Below are positions 2,907-35,392 of a DNA stretch of 41,997 nt, piece by piece. The position numbers and the translations under genes were made by a program. The notes beneath the pieces were generated by a model, which made no database searches, was not told the origin of the DNA, and saw nothing but the letters and a program-made list of their open reading frames with translations. Source of the DNA: a virus; IMG/VR virus record IMGVR_UViG_3300005530_000016, positions 1-41,997 of that record. One strand, 5' to 3'. How positions within the stretch are numbered: position 1 is the first letter of the stretch; the number at the start of each line of letters is the position of its first letter.

Positions 2907-3594
2907 GTGTCTCCAATATATTTCTGATTCTGTTGCCCTCTCCTTCCATGCACGCCCTACTCACATTATTCCTGCTGATTGCCCTATACCTATCGTGAAC
3001 TGCATCATTACCTCGTGTACCGCAACAAGGACTAAAGTGAAATACCTCCAATGACGGACAATACACTAATCGACCAGCAGAACTCCATTGACCGTGGTGA
3101 TGAATGTCTTGACAGCTGGTTGTGTTCTCAACGTGTACCAAATAACCTGCGGCGGAATATGCGGGTCTTGTCATGCACGGAAAACAAAAATAACCTGCAT
3201 TGAGATTATCTTTACCGGCGAGAGCAACAGCACCATCAGGAAATTCTTTTTTAATTTCCTCTAGCCGGTTGAGCGTTTCCGTGTCCCATCCCTTGCGAGT
3301 TAGAATTACATCGTCATTTAGGAGCCATAAAATTGAACCGCTAGTAAGTCTGGCGATAGTGTTATAATAATGTGTAAAGTTGGTTTGTCGGTTAAAATAA
3401 CAAAAGCGTAGCCAGGGATATTCTCGCATTAATTTTCCCGATTCACAAACTGTACTATTATCGTCGAAATCTATAGCGATAAAGCATTCAAGACGAGATA
3501 AAACAGAAGTCGTATCTTGTACGGATTGTAAAAACTGTCGCAATAGTGGGATTCTTTCGCGACTAGCCAGAATTAATGAAAAATCTGTGTCCAT
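2893..3594 (-). CDS. GT-A fold glycosyltransferase (family 2-like)
   Basis: 233 residues. The N-terminus (SLILASRERIPLLRQFLQSV) is the first strand and nucleotide-sugar loop of GT-A enzymes. LLNDDVILTRKGWD at about 91-104 supplies the acidic metal-binding motif (NDD in place of DXD). A His/Cys cluster lies near 160-200. The start at 3594 has no Shine-Dalgarno sequence but is preceded by ACTATAATAAAG, as in other virion-region genes. With the GT25-like gene at 5413-4139 and the GT at 24344, it suggests that the phage glycosylates its own proteins or the host surface. The acceptor cannot be read from the sequence. Confidence 0.75.
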   Translation of the reverse strand: MDTDFSLILASRERIPLLRQFLQSVQDTTSVLSRLECFIAIDFDDNSTVCESGKLMREYPWLRFCYFNRQTNFTHYYNTIARLTSGSILWLLNDDVILTRKGWDTETLNRLEEIKKEFPDGAVALAGKDNLNAGYFCFPCMTRPAYSAAGYLVHVENTTSCQDIHHHGQWSSAGRLVYCPSLEVFHFSPCCGTRGNDAVHDRYRAISRNNVSRACMEGEGNRIRNILETRANS

Positions 3595-3608
3595 TACTTT
3601 ATTATAGT

Positions 3609-4190
3609 ATGGGAAATAAGCTTAAAAAGAACCGCTTTGAAACCGTGATTGAGGATGGGATTGTGTATGTGCCGCTAAGTAGAGGATTATTCGCAAAATT
3701 AGATTTAGAAGATTATAACAATTTCAACGTTGGAAATTATAACTGGTATGCCAGAAGAGTACATTATCGTGGACAATATTATTTAAATTTTTACGCCGCC
3801 ACCACAATGGATGGCAAAATCATTTACTTACATTCGTTATTGCGAGGAAAGGGGGCTGACCATGTAGATGGTGATGGACTCAATAATCTCAGTACGAATT
3901 TACGACCTGCCACCCAAAGCCAAAATAATGCCAATCGAAACAAAAGCCCAAATTGTACTTCTAAATATAAAGGTGTGAGCAAAAACAAAAATAAATGGCA
4001 GGCGCAAATAAAGCACAATAAGAAAAAACATTATCTTGGACGTTTTGAAAAAGAATCCGATGCAGCTATTTGTTATGACCGAGAAGCTTGTAAAATATTT
4101 GGTGAGTACGCGAAACCAAACTTTGTAATTCACTACGATTACGAAGCTACTGGAGGCTTTAATAAGTCTTCCACTTCTTCCACCGTATGA
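3609..4190 (+). CDS. HNH homing-type endonuclease with AP2 domain
   Basis: 193 residues from the ATG at 3609. Residues about 74-100 form the HNH core (YLHSLLRGKGADHVDGDGLN, with H75, D84-H85 and N93 as candidate catalytic or metal residues). Residues about 117-171 form an AP2/ERF-type DNA-binding domain (SKYKGVSKNKNKWQAQI ... HYLGRFEKESDAA). This HNH-AP2 arrangement is typical of free-standing phage homing endonucleases. It sits in the opposite strand between two glycosyltransferase genes. Its last ~17 codons overlap the 3' end of the GT25-like gene, so the insertion probably took over that end. Confidence 0.85.
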   Translation: MGNKLKKNRFETVIEDGIVYVPLSRGLFAKLDLEDYNNFNVGNYNWYARRVHYRGQYYLNFYAATTMDGKIIYLHSLLRGKGADHVDGDGLNNLSTNLRPATQSQNNANRNKSPNCTSKYKGVSKNKNKWQAQIKHNKKKHYLGRFEKESDAAICYDREACKIFGEYAKPNFVIHYDYEATGGFNKSSTSSTV

Positions 4191-22466: not shown

Positions 22467-22682
22467 TTAGAGTAAGGGTTCACTATAATGCGAAAGAGTT
22501 AATTGTGTAATTTCTCCATTATACAAATCACTCAGCCATTCCTTAGTGTCTTCGTCGTCGAAATCAACTTGGAATAATTCATCAGGTGTGCCAAAACCCG
22601 AATCGTAACACCAAGCCAATCCATACTTGTCAACTAAATCTGCATACTCCTTCAGAAAATCTTTTTTTAATTTATTCATCAT
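22467..22682 (-). CDS. Small acidic protein after the portal
   Basis: 71 residues (or 70 from the second ATG at 22679): N-terminal basic helix KLKKDFLKEYADLVDKYGLAW, then acidic (FQVDFDDEDTKEWLSDL). Its start overlaps the portal stop by 11 bases, implying coupling. No family is recognised. Confidence 0.55.
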   Translation of the reverse strand: MMNKLKKDFLKEYADLVDKYGLAWCYDSGFGTPDELFQVDFDDEDTKEWLSDLYNGEITQLTLSHYSEPLL

Positions 22683-24309
22683 TATCTTTTTCTTTGTTTT
22701 CTTTATTAGGGTTCATCGAGAAATTAAAAGCTTGCTGTGCCATTTTGCTTAAAACCTTGTCACCCTGTTGTGGCTGATTCAAACCCAAAACACTCCTGAC
22801 CTGTTCCTCATCCAAATCAGCACCCATTTCAAACGCATTTTTAGCCGCGCTCATCCATTCCATTGGGTCGTTCTTGTCAACTACCAACTTATAAGTACAG
22901 TAAAATCTCGTTTCAGGGAATGTCCACTTTTGAATAACACTAACCAAATCTCGCGTAATCGTTTCCTGTAAATTAATAGCATCGAACTTTACAATACGAT
23001 GGAAAGTTTCTCCATGTTGTTGACCTACACCACTATTCATGCCAGAAGTAGTAGGATGTGAAGTTGCATCTTGACCCTGAATGTAACGGCGAATCTGTCC
23101 ACCAAAATAATCATCCAAGACCTTCAATAAGTTATCAACACCCACTGGACTTGGTTCAATCCTTTCAATATCCTCAGTGCTTTTTGGGTCGCTGGGGTCT
23201 TTCGGGAATAGTAAAACACCTTGGAACGATTCACTCTCTGCAATAGCTTTAGCAGCATTATAACTCTCTGAATTATTACGAATATAACGTATAATGGTTA
23301 ATCCCGTTCCAATACGTTCCATTAACTCAATTAACCAACCCGTCAATTCGTTCTGTAAATACCATGTCCAATATAATACTGACCTAATTCCAAGACCCTT
23401 TACTCCACCTGCGGACTCTGCTTCAAAGAAATCACCAGGCATCAATTCGTGCTGATGTAGAACCAAAGCTTCTCGTTCGTGGAAAGCTAACTGACGAATA
23501 CCTCCTTCCATGCCCGTATCGCCTAAAACGTGTGCCCTGCTGACATCTGTAGGTTGAGTGCTTAGTTTCTTGGTTCCTTGTGCGCCTGTGAAGATACCAA
23601 CCAAAATACCTACATCTTCGGAAGTGTATTTAAATTCCAAAGAGTCACCTTGCACTGGAGTCCAATCCTTAACCATCAATCGCTTAAAAGATTTTCGCCA
23701 GTCCCAATAAAAGTTATTAATGACAGCAAAACGACCAAACCAAATAGCATAAAGTAAAGCATATTTGTATTTTAAGAAATAAGGAACGCAATCAATGATA
23801 TTTTGAATTTCACTGGCTACCTTTAATTGTTCGGGGTCAGTTTTATCCTCTGGCTCTACATGTCCTTCTAATTCTGCCGTAGCTAACATTCTTGCCTGTA
23901 ATGGTGTACGAATGCTTAAATTACGCATCATGTTTCGCGCATTGGTACGAGAGTTTCTTATAGCTTCGTCAGGATTTAAATAGAAGTGACGAAAAGCGTT
24001 AATTAGACCAGCATATTGTTGGGCGGCTGGTACGATGATTGTTCCACCACCAGGAGGGATTTTATATTCTAAAAAATTACCTGTAGGCGTTTCTTTAATA
24101 GTGGAAATATTATTTAAAAAAGGACTTTCATTTAAAAAGTTATTGCCTCTATCAAAGGGCGTATTCATGGGATTAGCTGGCATGGCATAGCGTTTACGTC
24201 CGCCAGGCGTTTTATCGGCTGTTAATTTGCCAGATTTTTCCCACCTTGTGATGGTACTTGCAGACACTTTAAAGTGTGTCGCTGCTTCTTTTTTGCTCCA
24301 GTTTGACAT
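22672..24309 (-). CDS. Portal protein (DUF935-like) with N-terminal MerR-type HTH
   Basis: 545 residues. Residues 1-45 (WSKKEAATHFKVSASTITRW then TADKTPGGRKRY) are a textbook MerR/excisionase helix-turn-helix with its wing. From about 100 on the protein resembles DUF935 (Mu gp29-type) portals: RMLATAELEGHVEP, YALLYAIWFGRFAVI, HQHELMPGDFFEAE, LYWTWYLQNELTGWLIELMERIG, DDYFGGQIRRYIQGQDATS, then a helical tail. The two parts are in one uninterrupted frame. ACTAACTA lies 4 bases before the ATG with no Shine-Dalgarno sequence. A portal beginning with a DNA-binding domain is unexpected; it might touch packaged DNA or double as a regulator. Confidence 0.75.
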   Translation of the reverse strand: MSNWSKKEAATHFKVSASTITRWEKSGKLTADKTPGGRKRYAMPANPMNTPFDRGNNFLNESPFLNNISTIKETPTGNFLEYKIPPGGGTIIVPAAQQYAGLINAFRHFYLNPDEAIRNSRTNARNMMRNLSIRTPLQARMLATAELEGHVEPEDKTDPEQLKVASEIQNIIDCVPYFLKYKYALLYAIWFGRFAVINNFYWDWRKSFKRLMVKDWTPVQGDSLEFKYTSEDVGILVGIFTGAQGTKKLSTQPTDVSRAHVLGDTGMEGGIRQLAFHEREALVLHQHELMPGDFFEAESAGGVKGLGIRSVLYWTWYLQNELTGWLIELMERIGTGLTIIRYIRNNSESYNAAKAIAESESFQGVLLFPKDPSDPKSTEDIERIEPSPVGVDNLLKVLDDYFGGQIRRYIQGQDATSHPTTSGMNSGVGQQHGETFHRIVKFDAINLQETITRDLVSVIQKWTFPETRFYCTYKLVVDKNDPMEWMSAAKNAFEMGADLDEEQVRSVLGLNQPQQGDKVLSKMAQQAFNFSMNPNKENKEKDNDE

Positions 24310-24343: not shown

Positions 24344-25393
24344 ATGAATAAAAATAGCAAGAAAAGATTCTTTTTCCAAACAGAAGACATGTTAGGGCAG
24401 TCTTTTTATCGTTCTCTCCTACCTGGTGGTCACTTACAGGAAGACGGAGTAGCTGATATTGACCTCTATTCCACTCCCAATGATTTTAATTACGATGGCT
24501 ACGTTTACCATCGGTTAGTCAGTCCTGGTCAATTGAATGTAATCGAAATGGAAAGAATGAAAGGTAAAATCATCCTCTGGGAGACGGATGATGACATTTT
24601 TCACGTTCCTCATTGGAATCCTTGTGCGCCACAATATAACCGCTTTGAAAATCAGTCCATGAACAAATATATGGCTGAATGTTCATCACATATCATGGTG
24701 TCTACTAATTATCTGAAAAGCGTGATTGTTAGTGAAACGGGCGTCAATGGAGATAAGATTGTTGTATTACCTAATTTCCTCGATACTGAAGCATGGCCCA
24801 AACCAGCTAAAGACCATGATAAGATTCGACTCCTATGGGCTGGTAGTGGTTGTCATCTTCGCGACCTTGACCAGCTAGTAACACCATTAGAGCGAATTCT
24901 TGATGAATATGGCGACCAAATTCAAATAATCTTTATGGGCGACATTCCTGAAGGTATGTGCGAATATGTCAGAATTCAAGGTAATACATTTGGTTTTGCA
25001 GTTCCAGCCAAACGTTACAAAGGTCGTGTTGGTTACGTGCCACCTGTAACCGTTAGCGAATATGCCCAAACTTTATCTGATTTGGACTGTGATATTGCTT
25101 TTTGTCCTTTAACTGACGAACCCTTTAATCGTAGCAAAAGTAACTTGAAACAGTTGGAATATACGATGGCTGGTTGTACTTGCATTTGTACTGACCTGGA
25201 ACCCTATCATGACTTTCCTTGCTTATTAGTTAAACCAGGTGATGGCGAAGGTTGGTATAACGCCACCAAAACACTAATTGATAATGTTGCTAAGCGTGAC
25301 GATTTGTATACTAATGCCAGGGCTATGGTTGAGAGTAAGTATAGTTGGCGGGGAGTTGGTCAGGATTGGAAGAGATTTTTTGAATCTTTATGA
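24344..25393 (+). CDS. GT-B fold glycosyltransferase (GT4-like)
   Basis: 349 residues from the ATG at 24344. The C-terminal half has the GT4 layout: IVVLPNFLD, IRLLWAGSGCHLRDL at the start of the second Rossmann domain, IIFMGDIPEG, then NRSKSNLKQLEYTMAGCTCICTDLEPY, where the E lies in the nucleotide-sugar pocket region, and SWRGVGQDWKRFF at the end. The first domain has the W.TDDDIFHVP segment. It is divergent from the portal and heads a five-gene operon with the candidate anti-defence gene. Target glycan unknown; virion glycosylation is one option. Confidence 0.75.
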   Translation: MNKNSKKRFFFQTEDMLGQSFYRSLLPGGHLQEDGVADIDLYSTPNDFNYDGYVYHRLVSPGQLNVIEMERMKGKIILWETDDDIFHVPHWNPCAPQYNRFENQSMNKYMAECSSHIMVSTNYLKSVIVSETGVNGDKIVVLPNFLDTEAWPKPAKDHDKIRLLWAGSGCHLRDLDQLVTPLERILDEYGDQIQIIFMGDIPEGMCEYVRIQGNTFGFAVPAKRYKGRVGYVPPVTVSEYAQTLSDLDCDIAFCPLTDEPFNRSKSNLKQLEYTMAGCTCICTDLEPYHDFPCLLVKPGDGEGWYNATKTLIDNVAKRDDLYTNARAMVESKYSWRGVGQDWKRFFESL

Positions 25394-25405: not shown

Positions 25406-25603
25406 ATGGATAGTAAAGAGAAAGAAAAAGGGTGTTGTGTATTTTGTGCCTCAGTTGCATTATTTGTTGTATTGGCATTATTGTCCTGGTGGTGGTATAA
25501 GGCAGGAGTCCAATCAGACGTATACCAACGGCAAGGTATACACATGACACAGTGGGAGACTTTTATTGGTACAAAGCCTGCTCAGATAGTAAAAGGGGAT
25601 TGA
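25406..25603 (+). CDS. Small single-pass membrane protein
   Basis: 65 residues: charged start with CC..C, one transmembrane segment at about 14-31 (SVALFVVLALLSWWWYKAG), then a polar tail ending KPAQIVKGD. GGGGG precedes the ATG. It might be a holin or spanin-like component, as no other lysis protein is recognisable, but there is no specific evidence. Its TGA overlaps the next ATG (TGATG). Confidence 0.6.
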   Translation: MDSKEKEKGCCVFCASVALFVVLALLSWWWYKAGVQSDVYQRQGIHMTQWETFIGTKPAQIVKGD

Positions 25604-25884
25604 TGGACATTACAATCGACAATTGGAAAGAAAATCAAGAGATTGCTTTAACGGTTCGAGAGCTTATGGAAAGATTAAAGTATGCGCCACTCGATGCGAA
25701 AGTTTTCATTGATTTCAGCTTTCCTCATGTAGCAATAACTGATACCACTATTACAGAAAGTATATGGATACCATCAGGCGCAAATAAAGACGAACCAGGT
25801 TATCATGTCATTAGATTCATGTTACAGCCAGAGAAAAAATACATGAAGATGGCATTAGCTTTTTTGATGAGAGAGGTTCAATGA
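25603..25884 (+). CDS. Unknown 93-residue protein
   Basis: MDITIDNWKENQEIALTVRELMERLKYAPLDAKVFIDF... The ATG overlaps the previous stop, with AAAAGGGG upstream. The TVRELMERLKYAPLDAKVFI segment has the look of small phage proteins in which a helix is followed by P-x-D-A-x-V and a strand. No firm family. Coupled (ATGA) to the Acb2-like gene. Confidence 0.55.
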   Translation: MDITIDNWKENQEIALTVRELMERLKYAPLDAKVFIDFSFPHVAITDTTITESIWIPSGANKDEPGYHVIRFMLQPEKKYMKMALAFLMREVQ

Positions 25885-26285
25885 AGAAACATAAAATAAG
25901 TGCTAATTACAGGTTAAACCCTGATTTATTGAAATATGCACGTTCGATTAGCAAAGAAGAATGTATTTCCGTTACTCGCTTGGTTGAGGACGGATTACGA
26001 AATGAAATAGAAAATTGGCTTGCAAGGAGAAGAATGAACATCAATCAAAAGAACAATAATCAAGGCGATGTAATTAATAATGTAGTTGATAATCTTAATC
26101 CAGCAATTAAACAAGTCCTCAAATACTTTGATTACAAACATCTGCCTGAACAATTACAAATTGTCTCCAAAAAGTTTCACGACCTAGCACACGAGATTGC
26201 TGTAATTGGTAATAATCCTGAAGTGACTGTATCATTGAGGAAATTATTGGAAGCAAAGGATGCGGCGGTTAGGAGCCAATTATGA
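25881..26285 (+). CDS. Acb2-like (anti-CBASS) protein with ribbon-helix-helix-like N-terminus
   Basis: 134 residues in two parts. Residues about 4-47 (ISANYRLNPDLLKYARSISK, then SVTRLVEDGLRNEIENW) look like a ribbon-helix-helix DNA-binding domain. After an Asn-rich linker (48-75), residues 83-133 read FDYKHLPEQLQIVSKKFHDL, then NPEVTVSLRKLLEAKDAAVR. This is the two-helix hairpin pattern I associate with Acb2/Tad1 hairpin proteins (H-L-P-x-x-L-Q ... F-x-x-L-A ... LRKLLEAKDAAVR). Acb2 is a sponge for cyclic oligonucleotide signals and blocks CBASS. The fusion to a DNA-binding domain is unexpected. Identification is from memory of the motif. Confidence 0.6.
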   Translation: MKKHKISANYRLNPDLLKYARSISKEECISVTRLVEDGLRNEIENWLARRRMNINQKNNNQGDVINNVVDNLNPAIKQVLKYFDYKHLPEQLQIVSKKFHDLAHEIAVIGNNPEVTVSLRKLLEAKDAAVRSQL

Positions 26286-26470
26286 ATATAGAATCACGCC
26301 TTAAACAATATCGACGAGCCAAACACAAATTAGCATGGGAGAAACTTCATAGACCGCACAGTTGGAACGCAGAACGTCGTCATATCATTACAATAGTTAA
26401 CAAATTGTGCCAGAATGATAAGAAACGAAAAATGCTTTTAACGGTGGTAGAGGAAATGAATAATCAATAA
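26282..26470 (+). CDS. 62-residue basic protein
   Basis: MNIESRLKQYRRAKHKLAWEKLH..., Arg/Lys/His-rich and helical. Coupled by ATGA overlap to the Acb2-like gene and convergent with the terminase gene (7-base overlap). No family is recognised; its coupling suggests a role together with the Acb2-like protein. Confidence 0.55.
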   Translation: MNIESRLKQYRRAKHKLAWEKLHRPHSWNAERRHIITIVNKLCQNDKKRKMLLTVVEEMNNQ

Positions 26471-27849
26471 GGACAACGATTTTTCTTTTCTATCTTCTTA
26501 ATTGGTTCTAAGCGTTGAGTTGTGAGAACTTTTTGTGAATGGCAGAGATATCTTAAACAATCCGTGAGGTCTTGTGGGCGTTGTTCGCTTTCTCTTACAG
26601 GTTCGCCATACCGTTTCTTATCATACGTATAAAAACGTATTTGGCTAATCAATTGTTGACATGTATTAAAAATCTGTAACATGGGACGGTCATCAGTTCC
26701 TTTTGCCATCAAGGTTCTTACACTGGCATGACCTGCTTCCACATCCTTAATGGCATTAGTATAATTAAAATTTCGTATGCGAAATTCATTTAAAATTGCA
26801 GCATTGGCAGGGTCAGCGTATGTGTTTCCTTTCACTAATACTTCTTGCCAATCGTCGTTTATTTCCTTAATGTGTTCTTCGACGCTGGTTTTGTTTTTGT
26901 TATATTCACGGTAAATGTAATAACGACCTTGTAAATCAATTGCCGCCCATAAACAAGCGGTGCTGTGAACGTGTCCTGTATCAAATCCTCTTATCCTCAT
27001 CCAATTCTTGTTTATCTCAAAAGGTTCTATGACATGTTCCTTACCGAATGAATTATAGATTAAACCTTCATAAACAGCAAAAGCACCTGTCAGACGAGTT
27101 TCAATTAGTTCGGGAGTTTCGGCTTTTTCTATATTTTTAATAAACTCTGGGTCAAGAGTTTTATTACAACGGGTATTCATGCGTAAGAAAAGATAAAGCG
27201 GGTTTTTCTCTTCAAATAACTTTTCCAGCGTTAAGTCCGGTTCGACCGGAGTAAGCGTGTATAATTGTAGCGGGGCTGACCATTTACGAGTTCGTCCGAT
27301 TAATTCGGTTATAATACTCATGTCCCTTACTTGTTCATCACACCACCATCCTCGAATGCTACGTGCCTGTAATGCGCTTCTACCCTGGTCATAACTCTTT
27401 AATTCAATCACGTAATTGTTGCCGTTAGCATGAGGTTTTAATATGACTTTTTTTGGTAATTGTGCTAGTTCGCTGTACCAAGAAACGCCTTCAATTTGGT
27501 CAGGTGTAATAAAGTTGGCTAAGTTTTGTTGCCATAGGCTTTCTGTCACCATTGGCATTGTTTCGCTGAGAATCCAAAAAGGTGTATTCTTTTCGGGTGG
27601 TGGAGTATCTTTTAAATATTTGGCTACTTTAGCTGCGCCGACGTATGATTTGCCGGCACCCGTTCCCGCTAAACAACAAATAATACCATTGTGAGTTGCA
27701 TTAAAAAATTTTGTTTGTTGGTCGAGTTGCGCATCGTCATCTAATCGGGGTTCAAAAAGATTTAAAGGCGTTGCCAATTGTTTTGCTAATTGTAACGCCT
27801 TAAAGTTTTTAGATTGAATTGCACGTTTTAATAATTCACGCATTGGCAT
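26464..27849 (-). CDS. terL: Terminase large subunit
   Basis: 461 residues from the ATG at 27849. Walker A at 61-68 (AGTGAGKS), Walker B at about 167-172 (GWWCDE), a C-motif-like TLTP at 198-201, and an RNase H-like nuclease with Asp at 290 (RGFDTGHVHST), 346 (TYADPAN) and about 427-430 (DLTD). It packages DNA by ATP hydrolysis and cuts concatemers. The start lies inside the end of the coiled-coil gene. Comparing the ATPase and nuclease with headful and cos groups would show the packaging mode. Confidence 0.9.
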   Translation of the reverse strand: MPMRELLKRAIQSKNFKALQLAKQLATPLNLFEPRLDDDAQLDQQTKFFNATHNGIICCLAGTGAGKSYVGAAKVAKYLKDTPPPEKNTPFWILSETMPMVTESLWQQNLANFITPDQIEGVSWYSELAQLPKKVILKPHANGNNYVIELKSYDQGRSALQARSIRGWWCDEQVRDMSIITELIGRTRKWSAPLQLYTLTPVEPDLTLEKLFEEKNPLYLFLRMNTRCNKTLDPEFIKNIEKAETPELIETRLTGAFAVYEGLIYNSFGKEHVIEPFEINKNWMRIRGFDTGHVHSTACLWAAIDLQGRYYIYREYNKNKTSVEEHIKEINDDWQEVLVKGNTYADPANAAILNEFRIRNFNYTNAIKDVEAGHASVRTLMAKGTDDRPMLQIFNTCQQLISQIRFYTYDKKRYGEPVRESEQRPQDLTDCLRYLCHSQKVLTTQRLEPIKKIEKKNRCPY

Positions 27850-28048
27850 TTTCAAGAGCCACTTCTCTTATTCCCCTTACTTCAAGCAACATTTGATATG
27901 CCTGTTCGTAACCTTGGTAGGCAATTTCTTCCTGACGAGTTATTTCTTCACGTAATTTGATATTTTCAGCTTGAAGTTCCGTTAACATGGACTGTAATTT
28001 CTCGATAAGCCAGTCTTTCACTTCAATTGTTTCGGTCACTTGCATCAT
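27836..28048 (-). CDS. Small coiled-coil protein between terminase genes
   Basis: 70 residues from the ATG at 28048 with GAGG upstream: a heptad-like helix, WLIEKLQSMLTELQAENIKL and onward. It overlaps both the preceding small gene (stop 28023) and terL. It may assist the terminase complex, but this is inferred from position only. Confidence 0.55.
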   Translation of the reverse strand: MMQVTETIEVKDWLIEKLQSMLTELQAENIKLREEITRQEEIAYQGYEQAYQMLLEVRGIREVALENANA

Positions 28049-28718: not shown

Positions 28719-31700
28719 ATGGCAATAAGTTTAGTCAATGGTGGGGCAATAGCTCGTAATGCGGGAAATGGTGGCGACGTGACCATAACTTTGCCAACTT
28801 TACAGCAAGGCGACGTTGTATATCTTTTTGGCGGTTCCACTGCAAATTCAGGATACACTCCAGGCGATTCATTAGGTGCTTACACTACCGTGGTTTCTCC
28901 CTTTACGTCTGGTGGCACAGGAACGGCTAACGGAATATTTGGTGTCTGGCGCAAGGTGATGGGCGCAACTCCAGATACTCAAGTTATCGGTTTAGGGACG
29001 GGTAATCTTGCTGATGTCGTTGTGTACGGCGTTTATTGTTTAAGAGGCGTTGATACAACTGTATTTGAAGATGCAACGCCGACAACCACAACGGGCACTG
29101 GCACCACTCCTAATTGTCCCTCCATAACTTTCTCAACTCCTCAAGCTTGGATGTTGGCAGTAGCTCTTAATCGCGTAAACGATGCCTCTATTACTGCTCC
29201 TACGGGATGGCTAAACTTGATTCAGGGGACGGGGAACGACACTCAAGATAGTTCTTTAGCTGGCGTGACTCTAGTAGGCAATCCTACCCTAGTAGACCCT
29301 CCCGCTTATGGAACATGGTCGGTCAGCAATTGGTGTGCTGCAACTTTAGCGATTCGTCCTGCTGACGTAAATCCTGGTTCGGGAGGCGAAGCGTTAGGGG
29401 GAACAGCAAATGTTACCTTTACACCTTTAATAGTCAGTTTCCCTTATACTGCTTCGGGAGGTTTGAGTTTAGGTAATAGTGCAACAGCAAAATCAAAGTT
29501 TATTGCTAAGGCGAGTGGTGGTTTATCTCTTGGTGGTACTGCTCCAGTTACATTCACTTCGAGTATTCCAACCTTTACTTACACGGCTTCTGGTGGTTTA
29601 AGTTTAGGTAATTCGTCGCCTGCTTCTCTGGTACTTGCTCCGTTTACGTACACGGCTTCTGGTGGTTTGGCAGTTGGTGGTTCCTCGCCATTAGGTAGCA
29701 ACGCAGTTATTATTGGCTCAGTCATCGCTGGTACAGTAATTTCCCCAACTGGAACAGGTACACAATCTCACTTAATTTGGGCAGTCAATGACGCTGCTTG
29801 GTGGTTATTCTATATCAGTTCTACTTCCAATACGACGGTCCTTACTTATCGTTCTCCTGATGGTGTAAATTGGACAGCGAAAACAGCAAGCGGAGCATTT
29901 GCAAATGCCGACGTTAGCCTTAACGCTGGAGAATCTTTAGGGGTTATCTACAAGAACATTTCTAGTAATGATGTCGTGCATTGTTCCATGTTGTGTCGTG
30001 GAACCGTAGACGAAAATCAACACGCCAGGGCGACAATTTCTGGCGGGTCAATCACCTGGGGGTCTTGGGCTGTTGTTGGTACTTCCCCCTCCCGCTCAAT
30101 ATCATCTTTCCCTGGAGGTTGTAATTCTGTTATAGACTCCAATAATACAATTGTTGACCTTGGAAATATGCAAGGTGCCACAGTTGGTAAAGGTTACGCT
30201 TCCAGGTCAACAAATACTGACAGTGGCACAAGCTGGACGGCAGGATTTAATGCAGCAACGCAAATATTTTCCGTCACTAATTTTATTAATGCCTTTGCTG
30301 CATTCGACACGGGTGGCGGTAACGTTCTTGCTTTGGGTGAGAATGCCAGCACAACCGAAGCGAACTCGATGACCAATGTGTTGTGGAGTCAATGGACTGG
30401 AGCATCCTGGTCAGCTTCGGCGAATGTTTTTACGAGTAATCTTTCTTCTGGCGTTGACCCTAATAACTTTGGTGCAGTAGCAAGAACGACGAGTGATGTC
30501 CATTGTGTAATTTTTGATGGCACTTCCACTTTCACTCATCGTAGATTTAATGGTACGAGTTGGAGTGCTGGTGATAGTATTCAGAGCGAATCTGCCAAGC
30601 CAGCTGCTGGTTTATTTATGGCAACGGACGGCTCTAATGTTTGGTTGTTCGTAATTGATAATGCATCTGGGAATGTAGTCAGGTATAACAAATGGACGAG
30701 TGGTTCGGGTTGGAGTGGTTGGCAAGGTTTAGAGCTTTCTTCCGCAACACGAAATAACATTGATGGCTACAATCAGGTAGTTAATAATCAGATTGGTATT
30801 GTTTGGACGCAGACGAATGGCAGTGATTTTGACGTAGCATTTGAGACATTATCAATAGGACAACAACAAAGTTCTTTCACATATACGGCAAGTGGTAATT
30901 TAAGTTTAGGTAATAGTGCATCGGTAACATTCACTCCCAACGGTACAACATTTACTTACGCAGCTTCAGGTGGATTAAGTTTAGGTAACTCTTCGCCTGC
31001 ATCTCAATCACCGTTTGCTTATACTGCTAGTGGTAGTTTGAGTTTAGGCAATAGTTCTACTGTTGTTCCAAAATATATTTACAATGCTTCAGGAAGTTTA
31101 ACTCTCAGTGGTAATGCGTCAGTTATTGCTCCTTCTGCATTCCTTTACACTGCTTCGGGAGGGTTGGCTTTAGGCAATACTTCTCCTGTTGTTCCAAAAT
31201 ATGTTTATAATGCTTCTGGTGGATTATCTTTAAGTAATAGTTCTTCTGCTTCCTTGACGGTAACTTACAATGCTTCGGGAACATTAAGTTTAGGTAATAG
31301 TTCACCCGTTACACCAAGATATCTTTATAATGCTTCAGGCGGATTAAGTTTAGGTTCTAGTGCTTCGGTTCAAGGTCCATCATCTTTTACTTATAATGCA
31401 ACTGGTGGATTAAGTTTAGGTAATAGTGCATCAGTTACACAATCATCGTTTACTTACTCGGCTTCAGGTGCCTTATCATTAGGCAGTAGTTCGCCCAATG
31501 TTCTTGCACCCTTTGTTTACAATTCTAGTGGCGGGGTATCTCTTGGTAATAGTTCTTCTGCTGTACCACATTATTTGTATGTTGCTTCTGGCGGATTATC
31601 GTTAACTGGTGTTGCTGGAGTTAGTACCACCATCCCTATTCATGTGGTGGCTTCTGGAGGGTTATCTTTAGGTAATACTTCTCCTGTAATAGCGAAGTAC

Positions 31701-32366
31701 CTTTATGCAGCTTCTGGTGGATTATCTTTAAGTAACTCTTCACCTAATTCGATTACTGCTTTTACTTACAATGCTTCGGGTGGTTTAACTTTAAGTGGTT
31801 CTGCTAATGTTACACCACGTTATCTTTATAATGCCTCTGGCGGATTATCTTTAAGTAATAGTTCGATAGTCAAGGATAGGTTCACTTATACTGCTTCGGG
31901 CGGTTTAAGTCTGAATAATTCTGCTCCAGTGCAAGCGTTTTATACTTACACTGCCAGCGGCGGACTATTTATAAAAAATGCTGCATTAAAACAGATTACT
32001 TTCAGTTATAATTCCGCTGGTGGATTATCTTTAGGTAATAGTGTTAATTTCAGTACGAATTACAATTACACATCTTTTGGAGGATTGGGCTTAAGTGGTA
32101 CGGTTAATCTCAGTACGAATTATAGTGTTGTAGCTTCTGGAGGATTATCTTTAGGTGGTATTGTTACAGCCACTTTATCTCAGGTTCATCCTACGGGTGT
32201 CACGGTGATTATTGTGCCATCCAGAATTAGAGATATTGTGGTTGTTCCTCGTAGGCGTGAATTTGTTGTTCCGGCACGTCAAACTCACTTTGTTGTGCCA
32301 ATTCGTAAAAAGTATATTAATGTGCCATCAAGAATTCGTAATATTACGGTAGTGCCTCGTAAATAA
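28719..32366 (+). CDS. Giant repeat adhesin / tail fibre
   Basis: 1215 residues. 1-220: a beta-sandwich-like N-domain (AISLVNGGAIARNAG ... VWRKVMG ... LAIRPADV) of the kind found in tail-fibre and lectin-like proteins. From about 240 come four copies of a ~20-residue unit, F-x-Y-T-A-S-G-G-L-S-L-G-N-S. At about 330-715 is a propeller-like domain (HLIWAVNDAAWWLFYIS, TYRSPDGVNWTAK, repeated W-T/S-A-x motifs) similar to sialidase-type folds. Then about 21 more repeat units, then a basic tail of VP(S/A)R-type repeats (about 1160-1215). ACTAAATA lies 7 bases before the ATG. It probably forms a long receptor-binding fibre. Confidence 0.75.
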   Translation: MAISLVNGGAIARNAGNGGDVTITLPTLQQGDVVYLFGGSTANSGYTPGDSLGAYTTVVSPFTSGGTGTANGIFGVWRKVMGATPDTQVIGLGTGNLADVVVYGVYCLRGVDTTVFEDATPTTTTGTGTTPNCPSITFSTPQAWMLAVALNRVNDASITAPTGWLNLIQGTGNDTQDSSLAGVTLVGNPTLVDPPAYGTWSVSNWCAATLAIRPADVNPGSGGEALGGTANVTFTPLIVSFPYTASGGLSLGNSATAKSKFIAKASGGLSLGGTAPVTFTSSIPTFTYTASGGLSLGNSSPASLVLAPFTYTASGGLAVGGSSPLGSNAVIIGSVIAGTVISPTGTGTQSHLIWAVNDAAWWLFYISSTSNTTVLTYRSPDGVNWTAKTASGAFANADVSLNAGESLGVIYKNISSNDVVHCSMLCRGTVDENQHARATISGGSITWGSWAVVGTSPSRSISSFPGGCNSVIDSNNTIVDLGNMQGATVGKGYASRSTNTDSGTSWTAGFNAATQIFSVTNFINAFAAFDTGGGNVLALGENASTTEANSMTNVLWSQWTGASWSASANVFTSNLSSGVDPNNFGAVARTTSDVHCVIFDGTSTFTHRRFNGTSWSAGDSIQSESAKPAAGLFMATDGSNVWLFVIDNASGNVVRYNKWTSGSGWSGWQGLELSSATRNNIDGYNQVVNNQIGIVWTQTNGSDFDVAFETLSIGQQQSSFTYTASGNLSLGNSASVTFTPNGTTFTYAASGGLSLGNSSPASQSPFAYTASGSLSLGNSSTVVPKYIYNASGSLTLSGNASVIAPSAFLYTASGGLALGNTSPVVPKYVYNASGGLSLSNSSSASLTVTYNASGTLSLGNSSPVTPRYLYNASGGLSLGSSASVQGPSSFTYNATGGLSLGNSASVTQSSFTYSASGALSLGSSSPNVLAPFVYNSSGGVSLGNSSSAVPHYLYVASGGLSLTGVAGVSTTIPIHVVASGGLSLGNTSPVIAKYLYAASGGLSLSNSSPNSITAFTYNASGGLTLSGSANVTPRYLYNASGGLSLSNSSIVKDRFTYTASGGLSLNNSAPVQAFYTYTASGGLFIKNAALKQITFSYNSAGGLSLGNSVNFSTNYNYTSFGGLGLSGTVNLSTNYSVVASGGLSLGGIVTATLSQVHPTGVTVIIVPSRIRDIVVVPRRREFVVPARQTHFVVPIRKKYINVPSRIRNITVVPRK
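29438..32178 (+). repeat. About 25 coding repeats of ~60 bases
   Basis: Two blocks, about 29438-29700 (4 units) and about 30875-32178 (about 21 units), split by the propeller-like domain. Protein consensus about YTASGGLSLGNSSPV. Units differ at many synonymous positions, so the array looks old rather than freshly expanded. Confidence 0.85.
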
Positions 32367-34351: not shown

Positions 34352-35392
34352 TCACTTTCTGTTAATAACCTTGTTTAGTTCTTCGGCTATGTCCTTGATG
34401 TTGTTAGTTAAATGACTGTAATGGTGGAACAACATCCTTGTGTTAGCGTGCCCAAGTATTACAGCCACTTTCGCTGGTGAGACATTTTCTTGTAATAAGT
34501 GAGTTGCTAGGCTATGGCGTAGGGCATATACCGTCAATTTTTCAGATAATCCAGCTTTTCGTCGTAAATTACGAAATCGCTCACAAATACCGCAACTATC
34601 GTAAGCGTTGCCGTGAATTGTTCTAAAAAGTGGTCCCTCTGGAAATTTAGCCATTAACGGCTTTAAAATTTCAATGGCCACTGATGTTAATGGGATGAGC
34701 AGTGGCTTTTTGGTGGTTTGCATGGTTTTGTGTTTGTCCAAGCGAATGCAATTATTATTTAAATTAACTGTAGCAGCTGTAATGTACTCAATGTTACCCT
34801 CTCTGGTCCCTGTTTGCCTCATAAACGCCAGAACGTCCTTAAAGGGGCTTCTAGCTAAATTATAAATAATCTGGTACTCTTCTTCAGTGATTAGACACTC
34901 TGCGCCTCTGGAAGTTGTTAGGGGGCGTTTCATGCGTCTTAAAGGGTTGCTCTCGATTAGCCGGTTGTGTGGTTCAGCTGCCCAATTTAAAGCAGCAATT
35001 AATCGTCCAATGTTCGTTGATTTTGTGTTGTGGTTCCATTCGGGTCGATTTATCCAGTCGTCCACCATTTGTGCCGTTAGATTTCGTACTGAAACGTCAC
35101 CCAATTTATTTTTAAAATCCTGAAAGAGGGTAACGCATTGCTTAAAGGAGCGTTTTTTTGTGCTGTCCATGTAGGCGAGGTATTTTTCGAGGATGACCCA
35201 GACGGGATTGGCGCTCATTTTGGCTTCAGCGTCAGCAATCTTCAAACGGCGAACCCATTCTTCCCGTACTTCCTCGGAAGTGCAGGGTTCTCGAAGAATC
35301 TTGACCTTTTGTCCACGGATGGTAGCGTACCACCATTGGTCCTGGGTGCGTAGCCAAGGGAAACCGTACCTCTGGCGCTTGTTCGTGTTCAT
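34352..35392 (-). CDS. int: Tyrosine recombinase (integrase)
   Basis: 346 residues. N-terminal arm-binding segment (WWYATIRGQKVKILREPCTS), core-binding SAM-like domain (about 62-150), and a catalytic domain with R197 (TGTREGN), a Lys near 222-229, ALRHSLATHLL with R292, GH at 314-315 and the nucleophile Y325 (HHYSHL). The first His of the usual H-x-L-R-H box is Tyr (YALRH), seen in some relatives. It integrates the phage at attP, probably in the repeat-rich non-coding DNA at 35393-35650. It is the strongest evidence for a temperate life cycle. Confidence 0.9.
   Translation of the reverse strand: MNTNKRQRYGFPWLRTQDQWWYATIRGQKVKILREPCTSEEVREEWVRRLKIADAEAKMSANPVWVILEKYLAYMDSTKKRSFKQCVTLFQDFKNKLGDVSVRNLTAQMVDDWINRPEWNHNTKSTNIGRLIAALNWAAEPHNRLIESNPLRRMKRPLTTSRGAECLITEEEYQIIYNLARSPFKDVLAFMRQTGTREGNIEYITAATVNLNNNCIRLDKHKTMQTTKKPLLIPLTSVAIEILKPLMAKFPEGPLFRTIHGNAYDSCGICERFRNLRRKAGLSEKLTVYALRHSLATHLLQENVSPAKVAVILGHANTRMLFHHYSHLTNNIKDIAEELNKVINRK

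Follow-up and report, generated by a model that had tools for sequence, protein, structure and literature searches.

Our analysis of a 41,997-base virus sequence (the whole record, hereafter the window) revealed a 134-aa open reading frame in which a small helical hairpin follows a short N-terminal unit with a weak resemblance to Arc-like repressors. The hairpin belongs to a large phage protein family and, although it scores below the Pfam cut-off, very probably represents a divergent offshoot of the Acb2/Tad1 hairpin superfamily. As a whole, the gene is best explained as a moron in which a small repressor is coupled to a nucleotide sponge of the Acb2/Tad1 kind, and which probably also yields the sponge in free form; we assign this reading a probability of roughly 0.45.

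The fusion gene and its N-terminal head

The features on which the analysis is based are the following:

22672-24309, - strand: portal, flanking the cluster
24344..25393, + strand: glycosyltransferase heading the + strand cluster (phrog_7162, 2.3e-29, moron category)
25406..25603, + strand: small 65-aa ORF with a membrane segment (hydrophobic segment CCVFCASVALFVVLALLSWWWY), first of the overlapping small genes
25603..25884, + strand: 93-aa ORF coupled to the fusion gene from upstream (ATGA overlap)
25881..26285, + strand: fusion gene, 134 aa, open frame with ATG and ATGA overlaps with both neighbours
25881..26033, + strand: putative Arc-like ribbon-helix-helix head, residues 1-51 (phrog_3180, AF2 helices)
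26024..26029, + strand: Shine-Dalgarno sequence AAGGAG, four bases before an internal ATG (-8.5 kcal/mol)
26034..26285, + strand: candidate second product, 83-aa free hairpin from the in-frame ATG at codon 52 (relatives are similar-sized)
26097..26282, + strand: hairpin domain, residues 73-134, N-terminal edge approximate (phrog_1761, phrog_5120, AF2 helices, phrog_1454 link)
26282..26470, + strand: downstream coupled ORF, 62 aa, basic, ATGA overlap
26464-27855, - strand: terminase large subunit, flanking the cluster
34352-35392, - strand: integrase

The cluster runs from the glycosyltransferase through the 65-aa membrane ORF, the 93-aa ORF and the fusion gene to the 62-aa ORF; it is flanked by portal and terminase, both of which lie on the other strand. 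Its last four ORFs overlap by one to four bases: the stop codon of the membrane ORF shares one base with the next ATG, and four-base ATGA overlaps (25881-25884 and 26282-26285) link the fusion gene to its neighbours on both sides, so that the original prediction was right in describing it as coupled to small unknown genes. Upstream of the fusion gene start, the pairing to 16S rRNA amounts to -9.7 kcal/mol. The 93-aa ORF had no relatives in INPHARED and no Pfam match, and the 62-aa ORF likewise had no relatives in INPHARED. Promoter and terminator scans gave nothing above chance, no operator-like repeat was convincing among the repeats examined, and Rfam and tRNA scans were empty.

Residues 1-51 weakly resemble a complete Arc-type ribbon-helix-helix protein. 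Residues 1-37 align without gaps, starting at residue 1, to positions 1-37 of the 50 positions of phrog_3180, a profile of Arc-like repressors; the unit shares with these repressors its size and differs from them in the weakness of the match (E=0.0011) and in the C-terminal hairpin added here. DUF6364 was below the cut-off (0.0095), and the head had no PDB match. AlphaFold2 (AF2) placed helices at residues 14-20 and 25-36, after coil. In ribbon-helix-helix proteins the strand forms only in the dimer, and coil followed by helices is thus what would be expected of a monomer. A ribbon-helix-helix-like domain before the hairpin had been proposed from the sequence, and the profile search lends this proposal weak support; the Asn-rich linker described along with it does follow residues 1-51. 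No relatives of the head were found in IMG/VR or INPHARED, and a simple motif scan detected a ribbon-helix-helix-like extension in none of the other loci among 151 of the hairpin family. The fusion thus appears so far to be unique rather than recurrent.

The hairpin family and its relation to Acb2/Tad1

Residues 73-134 are full members of phrog_1761 (1.9e-23) and phrog_5120 (3.6e-16), neither of which has an assigned function, with 46-62% identity to typical members. These are 60-80 aa long and consist of the hairpin domain alone, whereas the protein described here carries an extra head. The family motif of phrog_1761, HLPxxLQ...FxxLA...LRKLLEAKDAAVR, corresponds to H87-L-P-E-Q-L-Q, F99-H-D-L-A and L119-R-K-L-L-E-A-K-D-A-A-V-R131. 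The three elements are present where the original prediction had seen them; however, they define the phrog_1761/5120 family and not PF24729, and are therefore not the Acb2/Tad1 signature for which they had been taken. With 333 INPHARED records matching at E<=1, at least 586 IMG/VR stretches encoding a relative and members on contigs from many bacterial phyla, the hairpin is, as judged by homology searches, a very common and so far unnamed phage family. Invariant positions (in the numbering of the 134-aa protein) are Phe83, His87, Leu88, Lys121, Leu122, Glu124, Lys126, Asp127 and Arg131. The conservation near 120-127 is overstated, since KLLEAKDA was one of the seeds of the collection scan; even so, the region is also kept in the five INPHARED members of the alignment, which tblastn had picked up without seeds of this kind.

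Family members are annotated as 'hypothetical', 'occludin homology domain', 'anti-TRAP' or endopeptidase 'Rz' (INPHARED hits H20, H23 and H231), and the names Rz, anti-TRAP domain and occludin homology domain are misleading for this family. One Silvania contig encodes copies of the hairpin family (L185, L192, L206) as well as a clear PF24729 Acb2 gene.

The AF2 prediction, run with 55 sequences, places hairpin helices at residues 74-83, 90-109 and 113-133, with a pLDDT >95 for the hairpin in the full protein; modelled by itself, the domain averages 97. Acb2 consists of a short helix and an antiparallel two-helix hairpin (PMC12043709, PMC10419184), and the model has the same layout; the two-helix hairpin, on which the original prediction depended, is thus predicted with very high confidence. 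A Foldseek search against BFVD returned the protein's own family first and then, at ranks 7 and 15, two predicted proteins named after the Acb2/Tad1 hairpin, with probabilities of 0.89 and 0.69 but E-values of 0.63 and 1.6 for what is a small helical domain. Against the PDB, neither the full protein nor the isolated domain had Acb2 or Tad1 among the best 50 matches, all of which had E>0.5.

Direct sequence comparison gave no significant link. The Acb2/Tad1 hairpin profile PF24729 (curated Pfam cut-off, 27 bits), which had been proposed as a check, did not match the 134-aa protein at E<=10, and detected the positive control, T4 Vs.4 (T4 Acb2), with 71.4 bits (7.1e-20). The best relative reached 18 bits (L209, E=0.0034), below the cut-off, and a Leptolyngbya member was the top PF24729 match in its own 8.1 Mb genome (0.048; 0.0034 alone). 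BLASTP against T4 Vs.4 gave E=4.4, and direct hhalign comparisons were not significant either with T4-type (P=0.13) or with P. aeruginosa-type Acb2 (P=0.075). Direct searches of Pfam, NCBIfam and PDB sequences with the whole protein returned only noise; a match to the anti-CRISPR 9wa8, which starts on the Asn-rich stretch, was dismissed.

The relation to PF24729 becomes apparent through an intermediate branch, phrog_1454, which occurs in Paenibacillus, Gordonia and Mycobacterium phages and of which a few members are annotated as 'cyclic nucleotide sequestering protein'. In a search of 38,880 PHROG families, 35 of 55 hairpin family members matched phrog_1454 (best 1.7e-4); it was the only recurrent non-self PHROG, the eight remaining hits being single. 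One genome locus scored 1.9e-24 on phrog_1454 and 5.2e-19 on PF24729, and seven further phrog_1454 members scored between 3e-13 and 2e-24 on PF24729; phrog_1454 is therefore a PF24729 family. T4 Vs.4 itself matched phrog_1454 at 7e-4. An hhalign comparison of 141 hairpin family sequences with 13 phrog_1454-type sequences gave a probability of 81.6% and a score of 31.2 (P=1.1e-5, to be multiplied by about five, as roughly that many branches, phrog_1454 among them, were compared), while 60 column shuffles scored no higher than 19.3 and the reversed profile 9.6. This makes phrog_1454 the closest verified PF24729 branch. Both share a F-x-Y-x(0,1)-H-x-P start, an R/PxREK/ERTxALxxLE helix and the hairpin length, whereas phrog_1454 ends in MWANASIA, the protein described here ends in KDAAVRA, and the latter stays below the Pfam cut-off. 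Had this branch not been available, we would have rejected homology; with it, we regard membership of the hairpin in the Acb2/Tad1 superfamily as very probable. Of the original designation as Acb2-like, a probable distant homology and the predicted hairpin remain, without a PF24729 match.

We compared the domain with Acb2 of phage T4 (Vs.4, PDB 7uq2) and Pseudomonas phage p26 (PDB 8h2j, 8ixz) and with Pfam PF24729. Shared with Acb2 are the short N-terminal helix before the antiparallel hairpin (here predicted), the positions of Tyr8, Glu72 and Arg79, and the small size of a phage protein with varied gene neighbourhoods; apart from the direct alignments, the differences lie in a shorter inter-helix loop and the attached head. 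A precedent for the hairpin as C-terminal part of a larger sponge is Tad1 (Thoeris anti-defence 1; PMC12043709), in which, however, an N-terminal antiparallel beta-sheet helps to bind the ligand, in place of the Arc-like unit found here. In an unsupervised joint alignment with T4 Acb2, Tyr8 corresponds to Tyr85, Leu70 to Leu122, Glu72 to Glu124, Ala73 to Ala125 and Arg79 to Arg131, whereas Lys23, Trp76 and Phe82 are replaced by Ser96, Ala128 and Leu134, respectively. Tyr8 and Phe82 matter for dinucleotide binding in T4 Acb2 (PMC12657218). Of these two and Lys23, which was included by its position, two of three (Lys23 and Phe82) are changed. The known Acb2 pocket, as far as the alignment tells, is thus kept in part, and since Lys23 and Phe82 are replaced, no ligand can be named. 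Because the domain neither reaches the Pfam cut-off nor retains these pocket residues, it is not filed as Acb2 itself.

Helical hairpins are common oligomerisation modules. Taken together with the Arc-like head and the partly kept pocket, this would fit an ordinary phage repressor whose head binds an operator of the cluster and whose hairpin merely oligomerises or binds a partner protein, with no nucleotide ligand. We consider such a repressor unlikely, as nearly all relatives are hairpins without a DNA-binding head, which argues for a function of the hairpin itself, and as the invariant charged residues Lys121, Glu124, Lys126, Asp127 and Arg131 exceed the needs of oligomerisation alone.

A putative internal start at codon 52

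An in-frame ATG at 26034, missed in the original prediction, is preceded by a ribosome-binding site and falls, as codon 52, at the end of the Arc-sized unit. Its pairing to 16S rRNA ranks in the top 2.9% of the 1399 ATGs of the window, and none of the 95 in-frame internal ATGs of 13 large ORFs matches it in strength. The gene may therefore yield both the fusion and a free hairpin. However, AAGGAG also encodes an Arg-Arg-Arg tail, and for this reason the Shine-Dalgarno sequence may be incidental.

Two other loci carry the hairpin at the end of a longer frame. At one of them (L071:2795-4201), the frame of a D12-class adenine DNA methyltransferase (1.9e-49) reads on into the hairpin; an internal ATG with a Shine-Dalgarno sequence lies 23 residues before HLP, in parallel to the fusion gene. 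At the other, on a further phage contig (L001:3557-4264), a HAD-type hydrolase (PF00702, 4.3e-8) has the hairpin as its C-terminal part and no well-placed start codon near it, and this is apparently a true enzyme-hairpin fusion.

The internal start also allows the opposite view of the locus, namely that it is a stand-alone hairpin gene translated from codon 52, to which a separate repressor gene became joined by loss of its stop codon in this genome or assembly only, the two having no joint function. The run-on with an internal start in the methyltransferase frame is similar, the Shine-Dalgarno sequence is as strong as those of real starts, and the head is about as long as an entire Arc-type protein, with no relative of it joined to a hairpin. 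Yet no stop codon interrupts the junction, which has an Asn-rich linker, AF2 predicts one continuous helix (40-70) across it, and the Shine-Dalgarno sequence is open to the reservation about the arginine tail. An incidental head thus also appears to be an improbable explanation, much like the ordinary repressor.

Proposed function and phage context

The presence of portal, terminase, integrase and glycosyltransferase genes gives the virus the look of a temperate-type tailed phage, in which the fusion gene, on the strand opposite to portal and terminase, would be a moron. The neighbours of its relatives are varied and include methyltransferases, a helicase and an endolysin, which supports this assignment. 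A housekeeping role of the family, such as one in packaging, head assembly or lysis, with a remote and functionally irrelevant likeness to Acb2/Tad1, is the least probable alternative and rates low because, although some relatives adjoin portal, major head, terminase or lysin genes, no family accounts for more than two of the 84 neighbour proteins scanned, and only a small fraction of the phages in INPHARED carries the gene, as for a moron.

For the moron that couples repressor and sponge, the following mechanism can be proposed. The Arc-like repressor of residues 1-51 would be joined to a distant Acb2/Tad1-superfamily hairpin (residues 73-134), which most likely forms oligomers and captures a nucleotide second messenger of host defence; the protein would thus probably work like Acb2 and Tad1, to both of which it appears distantly related. 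The fusion probably arose when a repressor gene lost its stop codon and read on into a sponge gene behind it, and the strong Shine-Dalgarno sequence at codon 52 points to the continued production of two proteins. One, the DNA-binding fusion, could regulate its own cluster, perhaps in a nucleotide-dependent manner, while the other, the free hairpin, would be the bulk sponge. In a more far-reaching version, which we consider quite doubtful, an immune nucleotide would lift the repression of a counter-defence cluster and at the same time be soaked up by the free hairpin, and phrog_1761/5120 would be an unrecognised branch of sponges; de-repression by the nucleotide, which the original prediction had put forward, is conceivable. 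We found no earlier report of the motif, of these PHROGs or of Acb2 joined to a DNA-binding domain in the literature searched, which was poor in subscription papers.

If phrog_1761/5120 proteins are sponges, a candidate immune-evasion gene would be present in hundreds of phages with widely differing hosts; it would have gone unnoticed because the branch escapes the present Pfam and NCBI models. Moreover, a DNA-binding head on such a hairpin leads to the concrete idea that some phages might sense host immune nucleotides besides absorbing them.

Features were also noted in other genes of the window. Unusually for a portal, the portal protein opens with some 40 residues that resemble the helix-turn-helix of excisionase/MerR proteins; phrog_57 and phrog_66, among others, match its residues 3-42. 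Adjoining the packaging genes, a 1215-aa protein (28719-32366, + strand), in which a degenerate repeat of the type FTYTASGGLSLGNSS recurs many times, is probably a fibre or adhesin. Furthermore, an ORF at 3576-4190 (+ strand) resembles homing endonucleases of the HNH/AP2 type, with matches to AP2 (5.4e-4) and HNH_3 (5.6e-3) that are both below the cut-off.
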